Assembly (NCBI GenBank): GCA_029065825.1
Contig: JAIEHQ010000052.1
Coordinates: forward strand, 1-36,493
Reading direction: 5' to 3'
Source: Alistipes sp.
Lineage (GTDB): Bacteria; Bacteroidota; Bacteroidia; Bacteroidales; Rikenellaceae
DNA: 36,493 nt
Within the stretch, counting starts at the first letter, position 1. Each line of letters opens with the position of its first letter. The notes below the pieces were generated by a model. It worked only from the letters and a program-made list of their open reading frames with translations. It made no database searches and was not told where the DNA came from. Positions 2,003 to 12,511 of the stretch are shown piece after piece. The translations under genes and the position numbers were made by a program.

Positions 2003-3130
2003 TTACAAAGTCTTATTCACAGAATAACGCAACCGGTCGAGGTGACTCTCGCAGTTGATGTAGTTCGCTATCCTGTATTTTTTCCGGGTCTTGAATGCCG
2101 AGGACAAGAATTTCAATTTATACAGAACTTTCGACAAGAAATTGGTTTTGGGTTCGAACACTCCGAGCATCAACTCCCGATAGAGATCGTAATTCTTTTC
2201 CACTTCGGCCTGCAGCAGCTCGTCGGAGGCAATGATTTCATTCAGGCGACGGATATTCCCGAAAAAACCGTCGGTATCCTTCATCGGAGCCACCACGCTG
2301 TCGCCAAGACACTGTATGTACGGCATCAGCACAAAAGAGACCCCGGCGCCCGACAAATTCAATCCAACGAGATACCCCTCGTGCCAGAAGCGCTCCGTCT
2401 TTTCATGCGGTTTGTCGAAACAGAAATTTCCCACTCCATAGAATATCGGAGCCTCCCGATAAACCTCGTATCCACTATAGCAATGCTGGTGATGGTTGAT
2501 GACCGCATCCGCTCCCGCATCGACAAAAAAACGGTATGTCCGCTTCATGCGCAAACTCGGCAGATTGAATCGCTCATGCCCTCCGTGGACCACCACAATG
2601 ACCTTATCCGCCTCCTGCTTCGCCTGCCGAATCTGATAATACACCGCAACCGGATCGAGCGGATTGGCACCGGGACTTGTTCTTGTCGCGATGCTAAATT
2701 CTTGTTCGCAACAATTGACAACCGCGACTTTCAGTCCGTCCTTTTCCAACAGCAGGGGACGGGCCGCCGCCTCCAGATTCGCTCCGACACCGACATACGA
2801 TATGTTTTTTTCATCCAGCACCTCAACCGTATTGTTCAACGCGGCCGCACCATAGTCCATCACATGGTTGTTCGCCATCGTCACACCGGTTATGCCCAAC
2901 CACTTCAATGCTTCCGCAGCACAACTGCCGTTTCTCAGATTCGGCCCCTCCTTGGCTATCGGCGACGCTCCTGCCGGAGGCAGAATCGTCGTCTCGAAAT
3001 TCACGATATTGAAATCGGCAGACTCAAAACAAGGCCTGATCGGTCCGAGCACGGCATCAAACTCGCCGGCCGCGAACTTGTCCTCGAGGATTTTGCTCGG
3101 TGCAAAATCACCTCCGAATACGATATTCAT
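2003..3130 (-). CDS. CapA-family protein (metallophosphoesterase-like, polysaccharide/poly-gamma-glutamate biosynthesis type)
   Basis: 'IVFGGDFAPS', 'NFETTI', 'VTMANNHVMDYG', 'VVVHGGHE', 'GADAVINHHQHCYSGYEVY' CapA motifs. Confidence 0.88.
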   Translation of the reverse strand: MNIVFGGDFAPSKILEDKFAAGEFDAVLGPIRPCFESADFNIVNFETTILPPAGASPIAKEGPNLRNGSCAAEALKWLGITGVTMANNHVMDYGAAALNNTVEVLDEKNISYVGVGANLEAAARPLLLEKDGLKVAVVNCCEQEFSIATRTSPGANPLDPVAVYYQIRQAKQEADKVIVVVHGGHERFNLPSLRMKRTYRFFVDAGADAVINHHQHCYSGYEVYREAPIFYGVGNFCFDKPHEKTERFWHEGYLVGLNLSGAGVSFVLMPYIQCLGDSVVAPMKDTDGFFGNIRRLNEIIASDELLQAEVEKNYDLYRELMLGVFEPKTNFLSKVLYKLKFLSSAFKTRKKYRIANYINCESHLDRLRYSVNKTL

Positions 3131-4578
3131 TTTTTATTGACAACCAATTTATAAATTTTGCACAACTGGCTCCGACTCTCCGGAAAAATACTCAAGAACA
3201 CCAGGTAAGCCATACACGAAATCCCTATTCCCAATATCGAAAGCAGGATAGAATCCAGCGTCCGGCTCAGAAGAAGAGAGACGGCGACCATAAGCACGGA
3301 GGCGATCAGCGAATATCTCACATTGAGCAGCAGCTCCGCAAACGATGTACGAATCAATATTTTCAATGCCACGACACTTACAAATATCAACTCCAGCCTC
3401 ACAAGCGACCTGGCGACATACAGCACCTCGTAGCCATATCTGACAGCGACAAGAACCGCAGGAATCAGCACAACCAGATGCAACACCTGAACGATCAGGG
3501 AGACCTTCGGCTTTCCGAGCGCGCGGAACACTTCGCTGTTGTAATGACTGAATATTATCGTCACGGCACTCATCAAGCCCCACAAACCAATAAATCCGAC
3601 AGCCTCCGTCCATTGAGAGCCGAGAAGCACCTCGCAGACGGTCGAACTGTAGCAAAAAATAATGACCCCGATGGGAAATACGACCATGGCCAAAAATTTC
3701 TGGCAAGTCAGAAACATCGACTTCAACTCGGACACGCTCGCTTGCAAGCGGGACAGCGAAGAGAAGATGATAGGCGTCGTAGCCGCCGTTACCAATCCCA
3801 TGATCTGACCTACGGTGGTCATCGAAGTCTTATATATTCCCAATATATGGTCATTCAGACAGACTCCGACGATAAAGACATCGACATAGCTCGTCATCCA
3901 GATCGCCACAGCCTCGCACATCGACCAGAAAGTGAAGGAAAACATCTCCCGCAGCTTCGCAAAGGAATAATAAAACGAAGGCTTCCACTTCGAGTAATAA
4001 GTCAGCAGCGCCGCATTCAGCAGATCGCGGACTATCGTTCCGATAATCAGCGCCCAATAGCTTCTGAACAGGAATGCCAGCGGAATGGTGACCACAATGG
4101 GAACGACGATGCCGACGATCCTTACCTTGAAAAGAGTCTTGAAGTCGAGATCCCTTTTGTACAATGCCATCTGAATACTCGAGAACGCCTCCAGCACGAT
4201 GGAGACGCACGCGACCGCAATGACCGCCCCCAGACCGGGATTCCCGACGAGCGCGGCAAGAGGCTCCCTGAACAAAATGATGAAACCCCACAATACCGCC
4301 GACAGGAAAAGATTGCTCCAGAAAGCGACGTCGGTATTTCGAATCCGGTCCTCTTCCGACTCGAATTCATGCTGTATCAGATATTTCTGAAATCCTGCAT
4401 CGGTAAATACCTCGACAAACGTGATGATCATCGTGATTGTCGCGACGACACCGAACGCCTCCGGAGCGAGCAGTCTGGCCAGTACGATATTGGAAACGGG
4501 CGAGACCAGCTTCGAAGCCAGTTCCGTCAGGGACGACCATCGGGTCGCCGTCAGCACCTTATGATTTTGCACAGCCAT
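3127..4578 (-). CDS. Polysaccharide flippase (Wzx / lipopolysaccharide biosynthesis family)
   Basis: 483 aa polytopic protein; 'TRWSSLTELASKLVSPVSNIVLARLLAPEAFGVVATITMI' typical of the N-terminus of Wzx/WzxC flippases. Confidence 0.88.
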   Translation of the reverse strand: MAVQNHKVLTATRWSSLTELASKLVSPVSNIVLARLLAPEAFGVVATITMIITFVEVFTDAGFQKYLIQHEFESEEDRIRNTDVAFWSNLFLSAVLWGFIILFREPLAALVGNPGLGAVIAVACVSIVLEAFSSIQMALYKRDLDFKTLFKVRIVGIVVPIVVTIPLAFLFRSYWALIIGTIVRDLLNAALLTYYSKWKPSFYYSFAKLREMFSFTFWSMCEAVAIWMTSYVDVFIVGVCLNDHILGIYKTSMTTVGQIMGLVTAATTPIIFSSLSRLQASVSELKSMFLTCQKFLAMVVFPIGVIIFCYSSTVCEVLLGSQWTEAVGFIGLWGLMSAVTIIFSHYNSEVFRALGKPKVSLIVQVLHLVVLIPAVLVAVRYGYEVLYVARSLVRLELIFVSVVALKILIRTSFAELLLNVRYSLIASVLMVAVSLLLSRTLDSILLSILGIGISCMAYLVFLSIFPESRSQLCKIYKLVVNKK

Positions 4579-4621: not shown

Positions 4622-6085
4622 TCAGCCGATCGAATCTTCCAAGACACTCTGATACCTCTCTTCGGAGATCTTTTTGACGAGAGCGGGACTCGCATCCACC
4701 ACCCACTCGATCCCGTTTCTGTCCGGCAGCATCAGGCGATAGACGACCCGTTGCGGAACCATGCCCTTTTGCGAGACGACTTGCCGCCCGAACGTTCCGA
4801 CCTTGCCCGCGAAATTTCCCCCGATCACTTCGACCCGGTCTCCCTCCTCGAGCACGAAAGTGCCGGCGGGACGGATCTCCATATCGGAAGTAAACCCGTC
4901 GATAGCCGCCCGGTACTCCTCCATCTGCTTCTCGGGAATCACCGCATAAAGCCTGTCGGCCCCCTCCCGGTAACACCATGCAAGATCGCCGATGCTTCGG
5001 AACAGCGGCGCCACCTCCGAAATCCGGCTGCGGAAAAAAAGCAGTCCGGGAATTACCGGTCTTTTCTCGTACACGAGTTTGCGCCCTATCTTGCCGGCGA
5101 TCTCCTCGCATGGATAATAGATCTCCGGAACGACGATGCCGAGGTGCCGCATCCGCGCCTGCAATCTGTCGTAACCGACATGCGGACGCAGCTGCATGGC
5201 GAACCACTGCTCCGGATTCTCGGTCAGAACCCGACAAACCGCCTCTCTCATACGGCCGCATGTCCGCCCGGGCGCTGCCGCCGGGGCGACCAATGCGAAC
5301 ACCGGATTCAGGACAGGCCTTCTGCCGGCACAGCCGAGGATCGACGACGGAGCGAAATCGCACTTCAGGGCCGTCATGCACCACATGTCCAGCGCGACAT
5401 CGTCCGATATGTTCGGCATCAGAATCCCCACCGACTCCAGGGCATCCGCGAACAGACTCCGGATCCTGCTCCTGAGCTGCCGCCCGCTCCTCTGCGACTG
5501 CTTCAGCGGAAAGAGGTACTTGCACCTGGGCCTGGAGTAGCTGGCGACGATATCGGCAAGGAGCGGATTCCCGCCCGCATATCCGTCTTTCCGGAAATTC
5601 GCGAGGCAATCGAAGGCAAGCCCTCCGTTCAGCACGGCGAAGAGCACCAGATCCGCCGCCAGGCGATGCTCGCCCCTCAGGCAGCATCTGTTCCGCACGA
5701 GTCGCCGCAGTTTGTCGTCGAGCTTCGGATCGACTTCATTGACGAACATGATGTCCGGAAGATCGAGAATACGCCTGCGGACCCGGCCGAATCCCCCGCA
5801 CTCTTCCGCCAGCCCCTCCTCGATAGCCTTTCCGTAGAGAGCGGAAAGATGCTTTATGTAATAGGCACTGGTCTTGCGGGTGTAACTCCCGGCCAAAAGC
5901 CATGCCCCCCATTCGAGCAGCAGCTCTTCCGTAAAATCCGCAAATCCGATCGTCCGCCCCCCGAGAAACCGGACGAATGCCGAATAGGCCTGCTTCAGAC
6001 TGCCGGCACTCCTCTCGTTCCGAACCTCCTCGATTCTGGTTCGAAAAAAATCGTACACGCCGACAGTTGCAGACACCGGACACAT
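4622..6085 (-). CDS. Fusion protein: degenerate tyrosine recombinase-like N-terminus (SAM-like core-binding plus catalytic-fold remnant) with C-terminal UpxY/NusG-like NGN + KOW transcription antiterminator
   Basis: Residues ~8-95 resemble the Bacteroidota Phage_int_SAM-like domain ('YTRKTSAYYIKHLSALYGKAIEEGLAEE'); ~120-265 resemble the integrase catalytic fold without catalytic residues; ~291-400 NGN-like ('WFAMQLRPHVGYDRLQARMRHLGI...YYPCEE...KRPVIPGLLFFRS'); ~411-440 KOW ('LEEGDRVEVIGGNFAGKVGTF'). First gene of the polysaccharide operon. Confidence 0.78.
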   Translation of the reverse strand: MCPVSATVGVYDFFRTRIEEVRNERSAGSLKQAYSAFVRFLGGRTIGFADFTEELLLEWGAWLLAGSYTRKTSAYYIKHLSALYGKAIEEGLAEECGGFGRVRRRILDLPDIMFVNEVDPKLDDKLRRLVRNRCCLRGEHRLAADLVLFAVLNGGLAFDCLANFRKDGYAGGNPLLADIVASYSRPRCKYLFPLKQSQRSGRQLRSRIRSLFADALESVGILMPNISDDVALDMWCMTALKCDFAPSSILGCAGRRPVLNPVFALVAPAAAPGRTCGRMREAVCRVLTENPEQWFAMQLRPHVGYDRLQARMRHLGIVVPEIYYPCEEIAGKIGRKLVYEKRPVIPGLLFFRSRISEVAPLFRSIGDLAWCYREGADRLYAVIPEKQMEEYRAAIDGFTSDMEIRPAGTFVLEEGDRVEVIGGNFAGKVGTFGRQVVSQKGMVPQRVVYRLMLPDRNGIEWVVDASPALVKKISEERYQSVLEDSIG

Positions 6086-6259: not shown

Positions 6260-6287
6260 CAAACATAACATTTTTTACCGACACAAA
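6260..6287 (-). promoter_or_regulatory. Candidate promoter of the minus-strand polysaccharide operon
   Basis: Minus-strand -7 TATGTTTG (6260-6267) matching TAnnTTTG; TTTG at 6284-6287 at a shorter than ideal 16-bp spacing; predicted 5' leader of roughly 165 nt. Confidence 0.45.
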
Positions 6288-6497
6288 AAAATCCGGCGGA
6301 CGCCGATTTCCCGAAAGCGGGGCATAATACGCCGCAATTTCCCGCAAAACGGCCCGAAAACACGGCTTTTTCCCGGATCGCAGCATCTATTTCCGCAATA
6401 ATATTCCCACCACAACAACCCACAAACAACTGATTCACAACGACAATCCCTCAAAAGAGGGAGGGGGGGGAATTTTCGAAAAAACGACAAAAAAACA

Positions 6498-6529
6498 TTT
6501 GTTTATTAAGTACTTTTGACGTAGTTTTG
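6498..6529 (+). promoter_or_regulatory. Bacteroidota-type promoter of the plus-strand export operon
   Basis: TTTG (6498-6501)-N20-TAGTTTTG (6522-6529); a second -7-like TACTTTTG at 6511-6518. Confidence 0.7.
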
Positions 6530-6664: not shown

Positions 6665-7828
6665 ATGGAAATCTACTACCTGATCCTATTCGTCTCGGCC
6701 ATGCTGAGCACCTGGTGGGTTTTTAGACACATCCACAAAATCGCGGTGCTGAAGAACATCACCGACAACCCCGACGCACGCAAGCTGCAGAAAGTTCCCG
6801 TTCCGTGTCTGGGCGGTGTCGCCGTATTCTTCGGCATCGTCATGGCGCTGCTGATAGCGGGTGTCGAGTTCGAGGCATCGAAAACCTTCACGATCGTCTG
6901 CGCCTTTACACTGATGCTCTACATCGGCACGATGGACGACATACTCTCGCTTTCGCCCCTGTTCCGGCTCTTCATGGAGGTGCTGATCCTCTCGCTGCTC
7001 ATCTACGGCGGCTCGGGATACATCGACGACTTCCACGGCCTGTGGGGCATCTACTCCATCCCCGACTGGATCGCCGTCCCGCTGACGATCTTCGCATGCG
7101 TCGGCATCATCAACGCCATCAACCTCATCGACGGAGTGAACGGACTCTGCTCGGGCTACTGCATCACGGCCTGCATCGCCTTCGGCACGGTCGCCTTCTG
7201 GTCGGGCGACCAGAAGAGCGCCTCGTTCGCCGCGATCTTTACCGGCGCGCTCATCCCCTTCTTCCTCCACAACGTCTTCGGCAAAAAATCCAAAATGTTC
7301 CTCGGCGACGGAGGCTCGCTGCTGATGGGCACCATCCTGGCCTACTTCGTCATCAGCATGCTCAAAAGCGACTCGTCGCTCTCGTTCGTCGCCAACGGCA
7401 ACTTCGGATTCATCCCCTTCGTGCTGGCGGTGCTGGCCATTCCGGTGTTCGACACGCTGCGGGTCATGACCAGCCGCATGCTTCGCGGCACCTCGCCTTT
7501 CAGCCCGGACAAGACCCACCTCCACCACCTGCTTTTCCGCCTCCATTTTTCCCATGTCGGCACCACATTGACGGAAATTCTCTCCAATATGATTATTTTT
7601 GCAGTCTGGTTCGCATGCTGGCATTGCGGAGCCTCCGTCGAGGTGCAGCTCTACGCGGTCATATCGCTCGGATTTCTGGCGACCTTCGGATTCTACTGGT
7701 ACGGAGTCCGCGTCGAAAAACGGGAAGGTGCGGTCTGGCGCTTCCTGACCCGGATCGGCGAGCACACCCACGTGGGCCACACCAAGTGGTTCGAACGCTG
7801 CACCCGGCTTCTCGATCGAAGATACTGA
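6665..7828 (+). CDS. WecA/MraY-like glycosyltransferase family 4, polyprenyl-phosphate sugar-1-phosphate transferase
   Basis: 'ITDNPDARKLQKVPVPCLGGVAVF', 'GTMDDILSLSPLFRL', 'NAINLIDGVNGLCSG', 'FLGDGGSLLMG', 'SPFSPDKTHLHHLL'. Confidence 0.93.
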   Translation: MEIYYLILFVSAMLSTWWVFRHIHKIAVLKNITDNPDARKLQKVPVPCLGGVAVFFGIVMALLIAGVEFEASKTFTIVCAFTLMLYIGTMDDILSLSPLFRLFMEVLILSLLIYGGSGYIDDFHGLWGIYSIPDWIAVPLTIFACVGIINAINLIDGVNGLCSGYCITACIAFGTVAFWSGDQKSASFAAIFTGALIPFFLHNVFGKKSKMFLGDGGSLLMGTILAYFVISMLKSDSSLSFVANGNFGFIPFVLAVLAIPVFDTLRVMTSRMLRGTSPFSPDKTHLHHLLFRLHFSHVGTTLTEILSNMIIFAVWFACWHCGASVEVQLYAVISLGFLATFGFYWYGVRVEKREGAVWRFLTRIGEHTHVGHTKWFERCTRLLDRRY

Positions 7829-7925: not shown

Positions 7926-10343
7926 ATGAAGATCTTCAGAATTTTAGTCGCACTGTGCATGATGCTGGCCGCTTCGCACGCGGCGAATGCACAGATGACG
8001 GATGCCGCCGTAAAGGATTACGTCAAGACAGGACTGGCATCCGGGAAATCGCAGCAGGATATCGCACGGGAGCTTGCGGCACGCGGCGTGACGCGCGAGC
8101 AGGCGGAGCGGATCAGGCAGGCACACGAAAGCGAGACCTCTTCCGGCTCGGACGAAGCGTTCCGCAAGGCGGGAGAGCAGGAGCGGGAGCGCCGGGCGGA
8201 TTCCGGTCTCAACGAGACGAAGCCCGTCGATTTCGACCTGCTGACCTCCATCCAGCAGCAGATCCCCGCTGCGAACCGGGAGAACAAGCCTGCGGTATTC
8301 GGACGCAATATCTTCACCACGAAGAACCTTACCTTCGCTCCGAACACCCAGCTCCCCACGCCGCCCAACTACCGGCTCGGCCCCGGCGACGAAGTGATCA
8401 TCGACATCTGGGGGGCCAACCAGGCCTCGATACGCCAGACCATCTCCCCCGACGGCACCATCAACATTCCGGACCTCGGACTGATCAGTCTGAACGGCAT
8501 GACGGTCTCGGAGGCCGATGCCTACATGCGCCGCATGCTCGGGCGGATCTACTCCCTGGACGGCTCCGATGCCAAATCGGAGATAAAGCTCACGCTGGGC
8601 AACATCCGCAGCATCCAGGTCAATCTGATGGGCGAGGTGGCCGTTCCGGGCACCTACTACCTCTCCTCGCTGTCGAACATATTCCACGCCCTCTACCGCG
8701 CCGGCGGCGTGAGCGACCTGGGGTCGCTGCGCGACATCCAGCTGATCCGCAACGGCCGGAAGATCGCGTCGCTCGACGTGTACGAGTTCATCCTGAAGGG
8801 AAAGTCGCCTGACGACATACTGCTTCAGGAGGGCGACATAGTGATCGTTCCCGCCTACGAAACGCTGGTCGATCTGTCGGGTAACGTGAAACGCCCGATG
8901 ACATACGAGATGAAAGCGGGCGAGACCGTCGCGAACCTGCTCGACTATGCGAGCGGATTCTCGGGCGACGCCTACCGCAACAGCCTGCGCATGATCCGCC
9001 GGAACGGCCGGGAATACCGGGTCTATACGATCGACCGGCCGGACTACGCCTCCTTCGAACTGCGCGACGGCGATGCCCTCGAAGTCGGAGCCATGCTCGA
9101 CCGCTTCGAAAACAGAATCGAGGTCAAGGGTGCGGTCTATCGCCCCGGAATCTACGAACTCGGCAGCGAAATCGCGACCGTCGGCCAGCTGCTCGCCAAA
9201 GCCGAGGGGGTCAAGGGCGACGCATTTACCAACCGGGCGCTCCTGCAGCGCGAGAAGGAGGACCTCACGCTGGAGGTGCTCCCGCTCGACATAGCGGCGA
9301 TCATGGCGGGCACCGCCGAGGATATTCCGCTGCGCAAGAACGACGTGCTGTTCGTGGCGAGCATCCACGACCTGCAGGATATCGGGCAGATAACGGTGTT
9401 CGGCGAGGTCGCTCGTCCCGGACAGTTCATCTTCGCGGAGAACACCACGCTGGAGGATATCATCATGCAGGCCGGCGGATTGCTGGAGTCGGCCTCCGTC
9501 GTCAAGGTCGATGTGAGCCGCCGCATCAAGGACCCCGCGGCCACCGAACTGACCGACACGCTCTCCGAAATCTTTACCTTCTCCCTCAAGGACGGCTTCG
9601 TCATCGACGGCGAACCGAACTTCATCCTCGAACCCTACGACCAGATCTTCGTCCGGCGCAGCCCGGCGTACAATCCCCAGGAGAATGTCACGATTACCGG
9701 CGAAGTGACCTTCCCGGGTCCCTATGTCCTGACCAGCAAGAACGAGAAACTCTCCGACCTGGTGGCCAAGGCGGGCGGCACCTCCCGGTGGGCCTACGTC
9801 AAGGGAGCACGCCTCGAGCGCACCATGACGGTCGGCGAGAAGGCACGCAGCCAGGCGGTCCTCGACGCGCTCGACAACTCCAAGGACAGCATCAATGTCA
9901 ATAAACTGGAGCTGGCCGATACCTACTACGTGGGCATCGACCTCGAAGCTGCCCTGAACAATCCGGGCGGGAATGCCGATCTGGTGCTCCGGGTCCACGA
10001 CCGGCTCCATATCCCGACGATGGTCAATACGGTGCGCATTACCGGCAACGTGATGTATCCCAATGTCGTGACCTACGACCCGGACAAGAAGGTCGGCGAC
10101 TTCATCAAGATGGCCGGCGGCTACGGATTCCGGGCCAAGAAAGGCAAGGCCTATATCGTATATATGAACGGAACGGTGGCGCGGGCCAAACGCAACAGCA
10201 AGGAGGTCGTGCAGCCCGGCTGTGAAATAATCGTTCCGGAGCGCCGCAAGAGCAGATCGACGCTCGCAGAGATCATGGGCATCGCGACGACGAGCGCTTC
10301 GCTGGCGACGATGATCGCGACAATAGGCACACTGGCAAAATAA
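7926..10343 (+). CDS. SLBB-domain polysaccharide export protein (Wza-like outer-membrane exporter)
   Basis: Signal peptide; 'YRLGPGDEVIIDIWG' Poly_export motif; repeated SLBB-like 'V.G.V..PG.Y' units. Confidence 0.93.
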   Translation: MKIFRILVALCMMLAASHAANAQMTDAAVKDYVKTGLASGKSQQDIARELAARGVTREQAERIRQAHESETSSGSDEAFRKAGEQERERRADSGLNETKPVDFDLLTSIQQQIPAANRENKPAVFGRNIFTTKNLTFAPNTQLPTPPNYRLGPGDEVIIDIWGANQASIRQTISPDGTINIPDLGLISLNGMTVSEADAYMRRMLGRIYSLDGSDAKSEIKLTLGNIRSIQVNLMGEVAVPGTYYLSSLSNIFHALYRAGGVSDLGSLRDIQLIRNGRKIASLDVYEFILKGKSPDDILLQEGDIVIVPAYETLVDLSGNVKRPMTYEMKAGETVANLLDYASGFSGDAYRNSLRMIRRNGREYRVYTIDRPDYASFELRDGDALEVGAMLDRFENRIEVKGAVYRPGIYELGSEIATVGQLLAKAEGVKGDAFTNRALLQREKEDLTLEVLPLDIAAIMAGTAEDIPLRKNDVLFVASIHDLQDIGQITVFGEVARPGQFIFAENTTLEDIIMQAGGLLESASVVKVDVSRRIKDPAATELTDTLSEIFTFSLKDGFVIDGEPNFILEPYDQIFVRRSPAYNPQENVTITGEVTFPGPYVLTSKNEKLSDLVAKAGGTSRWAYVKGARLERTMTVGEKARSQAVLDALDNSKDSINVNKLELADTYYVGIDLEAALNNPGGNADLVLRVHDRLHIPTMVNTVRITGNVMYPNVVTYDPDKKVGDFIKMAGGYGFRAKKGKAYIVYMNGTVARAKRNSKEVVQPGCEIIVPERRKSRSTLAEIMGIATTSASLATMIATIGTLAK

Positions 10344-10355
10344 CACGAACCGGAT

Positions 10356-11450
10356 ATGACTGACACGCAAAACAATACCAATAGTACAAACTCCGCAGCA
10401 GAAAGCGACATCGATCTCATGTCCCTGCTGGTCCGCCTGTGGCACGCACGCCTCTTTCTGCTGAAATGCTGTGCGGCGGGTGCCGTTCTGGGGCTGATCG
10501 TCGGATTCAGCATCCCGAAGCGCTACCGCGCGACGGCGGTCATCGCTCCCGAGACCGAACAGAAGATGGGAAGCGGTGTCAGCTCCCTCGCGAGCATGAT
10601 GGGCATGAACCTCGACAACAACGTCGATGCGATCAACGTAAACATGTTCCCGGAAGTAGTACACTCCACCCCTTTCATATTCGGACTGTTCGATCTCCCG
10701 GTCGAGACGGCCGACGGAGAACTGCGGACAACGCTGCTGGATTACATGCTCAACCACCAGAAGAAGGCATGGTGGTCCTACGTCATCGAGGCGCCTTTCG
10801 CGGCTTTGGAGTGGGGCATCTCGCTGGTATCAGGCAAAGAGGAGGAACCGGAAGGAGCTTTGCAGATGCACAACCTGCCGAAAAAAGAGCGGGCCGTCAT
10901 CAAATACTTCTCCAATGCCCTCGCTGTCAGCATCGACAAGAAAACGGGCAAGACGGACATGTCCCTCGAGATGCAGGACCCTCTGGTCGTCGCAACGGTC
11001 ATGAATGCGGTGCTCGACCACCTGAAAGCCTACATGTCGGACTACCGCACCTCGAAATCCCGGCAGGACGCGGAAAATCTCTCGGTCATCTGCGAGGAGC
11101 GCAAAGCCGACTACTACCGCACGCAGCAGCAATACGCAGCCTACGCCGATGCGAACAAGAGCGTCGTGCTCCAGTCGGTCCAGGCCGAACGCGAGCGCCT
11201 GCAGCAGGAGATGCAGCTGGCCTATCAGGTCTATTCGCAGGTAGCGACCCAGCTCGAAGCAGCCCGAATCAAGGAGCAGCAGGCCAAGCCGGTCTTCGCG
11301 ATCATCGACCCCGTGACGGTTCCCCTCCGCAAGTCGGCACCGAGCAAGGCCAAACTGCTCGTCGGCTTCGTGTTCCTATTCGGCTGCGCGGGCGTTGCCT
11401 GGGAGCTGTTCGGCCGCGATGCCTTGAAACGGCTGCACTCGTCTCTGTAA
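10356..11450 (+). CDS. Wzz-like chain length determinant protein
   Basis: N- and C-terminal TM segments, 'IDLMSLLVRLWHARLFLLKCCAAGAVLGLIVGFSIPKRYRATAVIAPE', 'FAIIDPVTVPLRKSAPSKAK'; no kinase domain. Confidence 0.85.
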   Translation: MTDTQNNTNSTNSAAESDIDLMSLLVRLWHARLFLLKCCAAGAVLGLIVGFSIPKRYRATAVIAPETEQKMGSGVSSLASMMGMNLDNNVDAINVNMFPEVVHSTPFIFGLFDLPVETADGELRTTLLDYMLNHQKKAWWSYVIEAPFAALEWGISLVSGKEEEPEGALQMHNLPKKERAVIKYFSNALAVSIDKKTGKTDMSLEMQDPLVVATVMNAVLDHLKAYMSDYRTSKSRQDAENLSVICEERKADYYRTQQQYAAYADANKSVVLQSVQAERERLQQEMQLAYQVYSQVATQLEAARIKEQQAKPVFAIIDPVTVPLRKSAPSKAKLLVGFVFLFGCAGVAWELFGRDALKRLHSSL

Positions 11451-11485: not shown

Positions 11486-12511
11486 ATGAAAAAACGGATA
11501 CTCGTCTCGGGCGGCGCGGGCTACATCGGAAGTCACGTGAGCGTCGAACTCATCGAAGCCGGTTACGAGGTCGTCGTGGCCGACAACATGTCCAACTGCG
11601 ACACGACCGGTATCGAGGGTGTGCGGAAAATTACCGGCCGCACGGATATTCCCCTCGTCGAGATGGATTTCTGCGACGCGGCCGCCGTCGAACGGCTCTT
11701 CGACGACTACCCGATCGATGCGGTAATCCATTTCGCGGCATTCAAAGCGGTCGGCGAATCGGTCGCCGAGCCGATAAAATACTACCGCAACAACCTGACC
11801 TCGTTCCTCAACGTGCTGGACGCAGCCCGCAACCACGGCGGCTGCGACGTGCTCTTCTCCTCTTCGGCCACGGTATATGGCGAGGCGGAGCAACTGCCCG
11901 TAACCGAGCGGTCGCCCCGGCTTCCCGCCACCTCGCCGTACGGCAACACCAAGCAGATCTGCGAGGACATGCTGCGCGACGTGACCGCCTCCGACCCTTC
12001 GATCCGGGGTATCGCGCTGCGCTACTTCAACCCCATCGGCGCCCATCCGTCGGCGCTGATCGGAGAACTGCCGCGCGGAGTACCCAACAACCTGATCCCC
12101 TACATTACCCAGACCGCTATCGGCAAACGCGCCTGCCTGAGCATCTTCGGCAACGACTACCCCACCGAAGACGGCACCTGCCTGCGCGACTACATCGACA
12201 TAGTCGATCTGGCTCAGGCCCACGTGGCGGCCGTTACCCGCATGCTCGAAGGCAGGATGAAGGAGGGTTACGAGATCTTCAACATAGGAACGGGCCGTCC
12301 CGTCTCGGTATCGGAGCTGGTCACGGAGTTCGAACGGGTCAATGGTCTCAAGCTCAACTACCGATTCGCGGAGCGTCGCCCCGGAGATGTCACGGCCATC
12401 TGGGCCGACACCGCCCTGGCCAACGAAGAGCTGGGCTGGAGGGCCAAACGCACCCTTGCCGAAACCCTCGCGTCGGCCTGGGCCTGGGAGAAGCATCTGG
12501 CCGGAGAGTAG
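11486..12511 (+). CDS. galE: UDP-glucose 4-epimerase
   Basis: 'ILVSGGAGYIGSHVSVELIEAGYEVVVADN', 'FSSSATVYGE', 'SPYGNTK', 'LRYFNPIGAHPS', 'EDGTCLRDYIDIVDLAQAHV'. Confidence 0.95.
   Translation: MKKRILVSGGAGYIGSHVSVELIEAGYEVVVADNMSNCDTTGIEGVRKITGRTDIPLVEMDFCDAAAVERLFDDYPIDAVIHFAAFKAVGESVAEPIKYYRNNLTSFLNVLDAARNHGGCDVLFSSSATVYGEAEQLPVTERSPRLPATSPYGNTKQICEDMLRDVTASDPSIRGIALRYFNPIGAHPSALIGELPRGVPNNLIPYITQTAIGKRACLSIFGNDYPTEDGTCLRDYIDIVDLAQAHVAAVTRMLEGRMKEGYEIFNIGTGRPVSVSELVTEFERVNGLKLNYRFAERRPGDVTAIWADTALANEELGWRAKRTLAETLASAWAWEKHLAGE

Follow-up and report, generated by a model that had tools for sequence, protein, structure and literature searches.

A catalytically dead tyrosine recombinase fused to an UpxY-type NusG paralogue at the head of a polysaccharide operon in Alistipes

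The window analyzed here, a stretch of 36,493 nucleotides from an Alistipes sp., carries on its minus strand (4622-6085) a gene in which a dead tyrosine recombinase is joined to an UpxY-type NusG paralogue, as identified by Pfam, NCBIfam, AlphaFold and hhalign. The gene is a single open reading frame of 487 aa (P0001) that starts with ATG at 6085, ends at the stop at 4622 and has no internal stop. A tyrosine-recombinase fold (residues ~10-264) is followed by an UpxY-type pair of NGN and KOW domains (residues ~292-472). An initial annotation of this DNA had already proposed the uninterrupted 487-aa frame, which is confirmed here with its strand, absent there, being minus; the boundary it drew between the two halves was about right. 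After 43 bases the same strand continues with the second gene of the operon, for a Wzx-type flippase (Polysacc_synt_3; 3127-4578), and, according to neighbor annotation, with genes for a PGA_cap capsule-synthesis protein (2003-3130), a glycosyltransferase-like TOD1/MUCI70-domain protein (1252-1998) and an EpsG-family (Wzy-like) polymerase (114-1214). Thus, the neighboring gene families bear out the earlier proposal that the gene heads a polysaccharide operon. A divergent polysaccharide operon on the plus strand starts with a gene annotated as WecA-like Glycos_transf_4 (6665-7828) and continues with Wza/SLBB (7926-10343), Wzz (10356-11450) and an epimerase (11486-12511).

Between the two operons, pattern matching on the minus strand gave two candidate promoters of the fused operon. 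One of them, TTTG-N19-TATTATTG (6396-6426), has one mismatch to the Bacteroidota pattern TAnnTTTG, and the alternative, TTTG-N16-TATGTTTG (6260-6287), lies downstream of a hairpin with a T-run (TCGGCGTCCGCCGG-ATTTTTTT; 6285-6306, minus strand). This hairpin is a weak candidate attenuator and, since the intergenic region is divergent, would be usable only by the leader of the fused operon itself. A structured leader RNA was rejected, as neither the leader (z-score 0.36) nor the hairpin (z-score 0.15) had a fold energy better than that of shuffled sequences, and no Rfam family scored above its gathering score in the window leader. An invertible promoter was also rejected for the window: repeats flanking the promoter were not found, nor was any inverted repeat of note or any site resembling ATCTCTT. 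In the lack of both paired and single inversion sites, phase variation of this locus is therefore unsupported. On the plus strand, the divergent wecA/wza operon has a sequence that matches the Bacteroidota promoter well (TTTG-N20-TAGTTTTG; 6498-6529).

The recombinase half consists of two parts. The core-binding (SAM-like) domain (residues 10-94; 5804-6058, minus strand) matches Phage_int_SAM_5 (Pfam PF13102) above the cut-off with an E-value of 7e-10, and is modelled as all-helical with pLDDT >90. The second part is an all-alpha remnant of the catalytic domain (residues 96-264; 5294-5800, minus strand), recognized by hhalign and modelled by AlphaFold without a beta-sheet. When compared with 18 active Bacteroidota recombinases, hhalign aligned residues 19-272 with a probability of 99.7 (E 1.2e-25). 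A search of the PDB with the single P0001 sequence gave no convincing match, but the family profile found Cre there by sequence alone (E 9e-6). The integrase reading of the N-terminus in the initial annotation is thus upheld by the Pfam SAM domain, hhalign and the family profile. The AlphaFold model of the full-length protein (mean pLDDT 87) had both halves confidently folded, and residues 1-272 modelled alone reached a mean pLDDT of 94. Foldseek with the full-length model retrieved NusG and RfaH first (E 3e-7), together with recombinases. With residues 1-272, the leading ~36 matches were all tyrosine recombinases or regulators with a recombinase fold, including Cre, lambda Int, XerA, Tn1549 Int and the regulators YopR/MrpR and SroF, so that the structural match to tyrosine recombinases sought as a test of the earlier proposal was found. 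The E-values of these matches were modest (5e-3 upwards) and the TM-scores low (0.3-0.4), probably because the two recombinase lobes are placed differently relative to each other than in DNA-bound structures; the fold assignment therefore rests on the uniform identity of the matches and on hhalign.

Although the core-binding and catalytic folds of a tyrosine recombinase are present, the catalytic set (R, K, H/x-x-R, H/W and Y) is not, since R, K and R-H are gone in P0001. Catalytic columns were scored in an alignment with 14 control recombinases, in which the catalytic Tyr was not reliably alignable. In the box I remnant LVLFAVLNGGLAF (5612-5650, minus strand; LFIFSYYTRGMAF in active enzymes), the catalytic Arg of the active motif YTRGM is replaced by G154. 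The box II remnant, as placed by the alignment and hhalign, reads L-D-M-W (residues 232-235; 5381-5392, minus strand) where active enzymes have R-H-S-W, and the Lys-bearing beta-hairpin is missing, in line with AlphaFold models that contain no beta-sheet. The same holds for the 33 fused proteins from 32 genomes that we aligned: the catalytic Lys column is absent in all of them, the box I Arg is kept in one only (L045), and each retains at most one alignable catalytic residue, compared with near-complete retention in the 14 controls. Two structural residues in the helix of box II, W235 and A239, do not vary among the 33 fusions. The core-binding domain is the part kept in every member, even in four fusions (L048, L050, L051 and L052) that have lost most of the catalytic domain. 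Judged from these residues, the recombinase half of P0001 is catalytically dead, which supports the earlier suggestion that the recombinase fold is now used otherwise, as part of a pseudo-enzyme. Net charge is also lower in the fusions than in active enzymes, both in the core-binding domain (~+1 vs +4) and in the catalytic part (+4 vs +11); DNA binding may therefore be weakened or lost.

Analysis of the C-terminal half revealed an NGN domain (residues 293-389; 4919-5209, minus strand) and a KOW domain (residues 414-465; 4691-4846, minus strand). The Pfam matches to NusG (293-389) and KOW (414-431) are both sub-threshold. NCBIfam NF033644 (antiterm_UpxY) matches residues 294-435 with an E-value of 1.5e-14, and Foldseek links the NGN domain to NusG and RfaH; the KOW domain is also seen in the AlphaFold model. 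The NGN and KOW assignment made from the sequence is thus corroborated. P0001 scores 54 bits on the UpxY model, under the curated cut-off of 100 bits; with 55 bits for the housekeeping NusG from this genome, the model fails to separate the two here. All 33 fusions match this model, and in a tree of NGN/KOW sequences the 56 rows of UpxY proteins and fusions were set apart from 7 NusG proteins with a support of 100. The position as first gene of a polysaccharide operon, typical of UpxY, is found in the window and in many relatives, with the exception of one monocistronic clade. The genome assembly of the window (1.6 Mb, 87% complete) contains the fusion in one copy, along with a single housekeeping NusG and a few recombinases. 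As only the integrase-like half of P0001 exceeds the threshold of a curated model, such proteins are probably misannotated as integrases.

The distribution of the fusion was then considered. In a genome scan, a homologue of 549 aa (L024) had 31% identity to P0001 over the full length (E 7e-96); its gene is located directly upstream of a sugar nucleotidyltransferase gene, and a second copy is present in the same genome. A profile built from two sequences matched 43 of 101 sampled genomes of the genus to which the L024 genome belongs, these matches not all being fusions. Within the family to which the window belongs, fusions were found in two further genomes, G716 (the closest relative, 44% identity) and G693. 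Among 393 sampled genomes of the order, no fusion was detected in other families, and a sample of 396 genomes of the phylum likewise had none elsewhere. An origin of the fusion in a mobile element or phage was rejected, with zero matches in plasmids, phages and viral contigs. The genes downstream of the fusions belong mostly to polysaccharide-synthesis families, and UpxZ was not among the commonest of these downstream families. In 26 of the 33 fusions, 52-56 residues separate the recombinase remnant from the first NGN strand, as would be expected of a fixed two-part unit. Because 33 homologues share the same architecture, a chance join is excluded, and a sequencing or assembly error, which had been named as a possible source of the long frame, was rejected on the same ground. 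The merger of recombinase and antiterminator that had been proposed is thus conserved, and we regard it as virtually certain that the fusion is real and its recombinase half dead.

Both halves point to a single origin. In the NGN/KOW tree the fusions formed one clade (SH-aLRT 93), and in the recombinase tree they fell on one side of a branch with a support of 98; the trees were quick ones with long branches, and these values, as well as the agreement of the two trees on one origin, are therefore only indicative. The recombinase half of L062 scored best against active enzymes (profile E 2e-33), and this fusion is basal in the NGN tree and adjoins the active enzymes in the recombinase tree. L045, the sole fusion with a box I Arg, comes next after it in the NGN tree. 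Moreover, four genomes that bear fusions (L148, L149, L153 and L180) also have an active recombinase gene directly upstream of a separate upxY gene on the same strand, and this unfused pair is likely to be the ancestral arrangement. Loci of P. distasonis, B. xylanisolvens and B. thetaiotaomicron have been described in which an integrase, a palindromic invertible promoter and upxY/nusG or a capsule operon stand in a row (PMC12118408). The simplest reading is that a neighboring invertase and UpxY merged and that the enzyme then decayed, which we consider likely. Since the same fused protein occurs at the same kind of place in relatives across Bacteroidota, the enzyme seems to have been repurposed as a domain that steers expression.

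Several fusions are located just downstream of invertible promoters flanked by the site ATCTCTT-N3-AAGAGAT. This site occurred upstream of 9 of 40 loci examined, mostly as inverted pairs ~150-240 bp apart, and 21 sites in the upstream regions matched at 11 or more of the 14 positions, compared with 1.8 expected. In a search of ten whole genomes, paired sites occurred at 10 places, with none for the reversed control. Five of these places precede fusions and one precedes a separate upxY, two are beside active recombinases, and the other two precede other genes. Depending on the genome, the promoters between the repeat arms point in either direction, and the presence of both orientations across genomes is as expected of true invertons. 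G716 has one site (12 of 14 matches) immediately after its promoter, without a partner site.

Sites of this type were also observed in other contexts. In two genomes (L181:1501-2563 and L189:630-1687) such an inverton has an active recombinase on one side and a DUF4007 gene on the other, where expression of a non-capsule gene is possibly phase-variable. In two others (L188:1501-3180 and L183:1501-3186) the genes downstream of this inverton are an SrfB-like gene and a TonB-dependent receptor gene; such sites therefore serve beyond capsule loci. Related long palindromes (arms TTTTCCCGAATATGGCAAAAT and TTTTCCGCATACTGCAAAACTTAT) were found ~125-180 bases upstream of the fused gene in L080 and L095, where they overlap the predicted promoters of these two related fusions and could be an operator.

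UpxY factors are known to keep transcription from ending too early in the leader that precedes their own gene (PMC7819879). As the NGN and KOW domains are kept at the genomic place that UpxY occupies, the C-terminal half is best read as an antiterminator of the wzx-to-EpsG operon, and the fusion probably antiterminates this operon, its own. By analogy with UpxY, the NGN domain would clamp RNA polymerase in the leader, and the clamped polymerase would then read past termination into the wzx-to-EpsG genes. Two observations weigh against this reading, namely a leader RNA that folds no better than shuffles and an UpxY score under the cut-off. For the N-terminal half, DNA targeting or recruitment is the likeliest role of the recombinase fold, though a more tentative reading with somewhat less than even odds. 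The dead fold might bind DNA at the promoter-proximal leader, where relatives have inversion repeats, and such binding might restrict loading to its own operon in cis. Recognition of DNA or leader in this way is favored by the retained core-binding domain, by the precedent of MrpR, a dead recombinase working as a DNA-binding repressor (PMC10516654), by the inversion repeats nearby in relatives and by the genomic spot, which is where the ancestral enzymes bind; the reduced positive charge of the fold and a window leader without a recognizable repeat speak against it. Overall, the best explanation appears to be an operon-specific, processive antiterminator of the UpxY/RfaH type that uses the dead recombinase as a recruitment or positioning module (probability about 0.6). 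A bolder extension, which we consider improbable, is that the dead invertase half reads the inversion repeat once recombined by its ancestor and so ties antitermination to the orientation of the promoter, both by loading the antiterminator where the repeat is transcribed and by shielding the ON orientation from the active invertase. If true, one protein would link phase variation at the DNA level with control at the RNA level. One clade of fusions (L055, L057-L060, L096, L097 and L099-L102) is apparently monocistronic, with genes of the opposite strand on both sides, and adjoins rhamnogalacturonan-degradation genes (GH88, GH106 and RGL11). Action in cis on the next gene is therefore not universal, and this clade suggests an RfaH-like action in trans.

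The main rival explanation keeps the recombinase domain off DNA and makes it a scaffold for dimerization, autoinhibition or partner binding that regulates an ordinary UpxY antiterminator. This would suit the lowered charge, the four members without most of the catalytic domain, the absence of a recognizable site in the window leader and the fixed distance of 52-56 residues to the NGN domain. We nevertheless find it rather unlikely, as the core-binding domain, the DNA reader of recombinases, is always kept, MrpR shows that such folds can retain DNA binding, and the fusions of relatives are located at recombinase sites. According to a further model, the dead half would sit on the promoter-proximal repeat in competition with the active invertase; an operon in the ON state would thereby stabilize its orientation, with the NGN half providing antitermination. 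Several genomes with a fusion just downstream of an invertible promoter, captured in both orientations, the membership of the domain in the same recombinase family as the enzymes beside such invertons, and the single 12/14 site retained without a partner in G716 are consistent with it; with no inverton at most of the 40 loci examined, the window included, its chances seem slim.

The two remaining explanations were given far less weight. An in-frame Met279 region (GRMREAV) just before the NGN domain could allow the halves to act as separate proteins, through an internal start or proteolysis, with their join being incidental; the conservation of both join and spacing in 33 members of a single clade, together with invariant residues on either side of the join, makes this very unlikely. 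That the recombinase half has remained active as an invertase has almost no probability: the overall fold is retained and the genomic position resembles that of invertase genes, but the Lys is lost in all members, the box I Arg and the box II R-H are lost in P0001, and the models have no beta-sheet. An active recombinase was thus rejected on the basis of the lost catalytic columns.

The fusions share with the UpxY family (NF033644; UpaY-UphY of Bacteroides fragilis) the NGN and KOW domains, the occurrence in Bacteroidota and the position as first gene of a polysaccharide operon (PMC7819879, PMC7593976). In contrast, separate UpxY proteins in the genomes studied here are mostly ~170-240 aa long and have no recombinase domain, a domain also absent from the UpxY proteins described in the literature consulted. 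The fusions score under the UpxY cut-off and form their own clade. With the tyrosine invertases of Bacteroidota capsule promoters (Tsr19 and Mpi type; P. distasonis and B. xylanisolvens integrases), they have in common homologous core-binding and catalytic folds and a genomic place with internally palindromic inverted repeats, whereas they have lost the catalytic residues, the beta-sheet and the status of a separate gene. A recombinase fold without recombinase function is also found in MrpR/YopR of Bacillus prophage SPbeta (PDB 8bj6; PMC10516654) and in SroF (9rd5). These are DNA-binding transcription regulators; the fusion shares their fold and residue loss, and its DNA binding is putative. 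Unlike the fusion, MrpR is a stand-alone phage repressor that has no NusG domain and keeps the Lys and Tyr. RfaH, like the fusion, is a specialized NusG paralogue with NGN and KOW domains, but it has no recombinase domain, is encoded away from its targets and reads ops DNA via the NGN domain. Domain II of Thermotoga maritima NusG offers a parallel, since it is an additional domain that helps to recruit this NusG to the elongation complex (PMC7819879), although it is a different domain that is not described as recombinase-related.

A description of a recombinase-UpxY fusion was not found in the open-access literature. The fusions are a distinct, conserved family of specialized NusG paralogues with a pseudo-recombinase domain; they fall outside the catalytic definition of a recombinase, and the best reading is that they would work like a factor of the UpxY/RfaH type. 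For RfaH, and in part for LoaP, it is understood how specialized NusG paralogues are targeted to their own operons only; to our knowledge, this is not so for UpxY. The fusion gives UpxY-type factors a separate domain of a recognition type, and as its recombinase ancestry hints at what may be bound, targeting becomes testable by domain swaps. The family also adds to the few dead recombinases that serve as regulators, such as MrpR, and joins in one chain promoter inversion and antitermination, two layers of capsule variation in gut Bacteroidota.

Finally, a second unusual group of UpxY proteins, ~350-390 aa in length, was observed (L149:5097-6263, L180:1396-2574, L171:1054-2097 and L028:1192-2250). 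These proteins have a C-terminal extension of ~150-180 residues. The two tested, L149 and L180, gave no Pfam match, and their genes lie directly downstream of an active recombinase.
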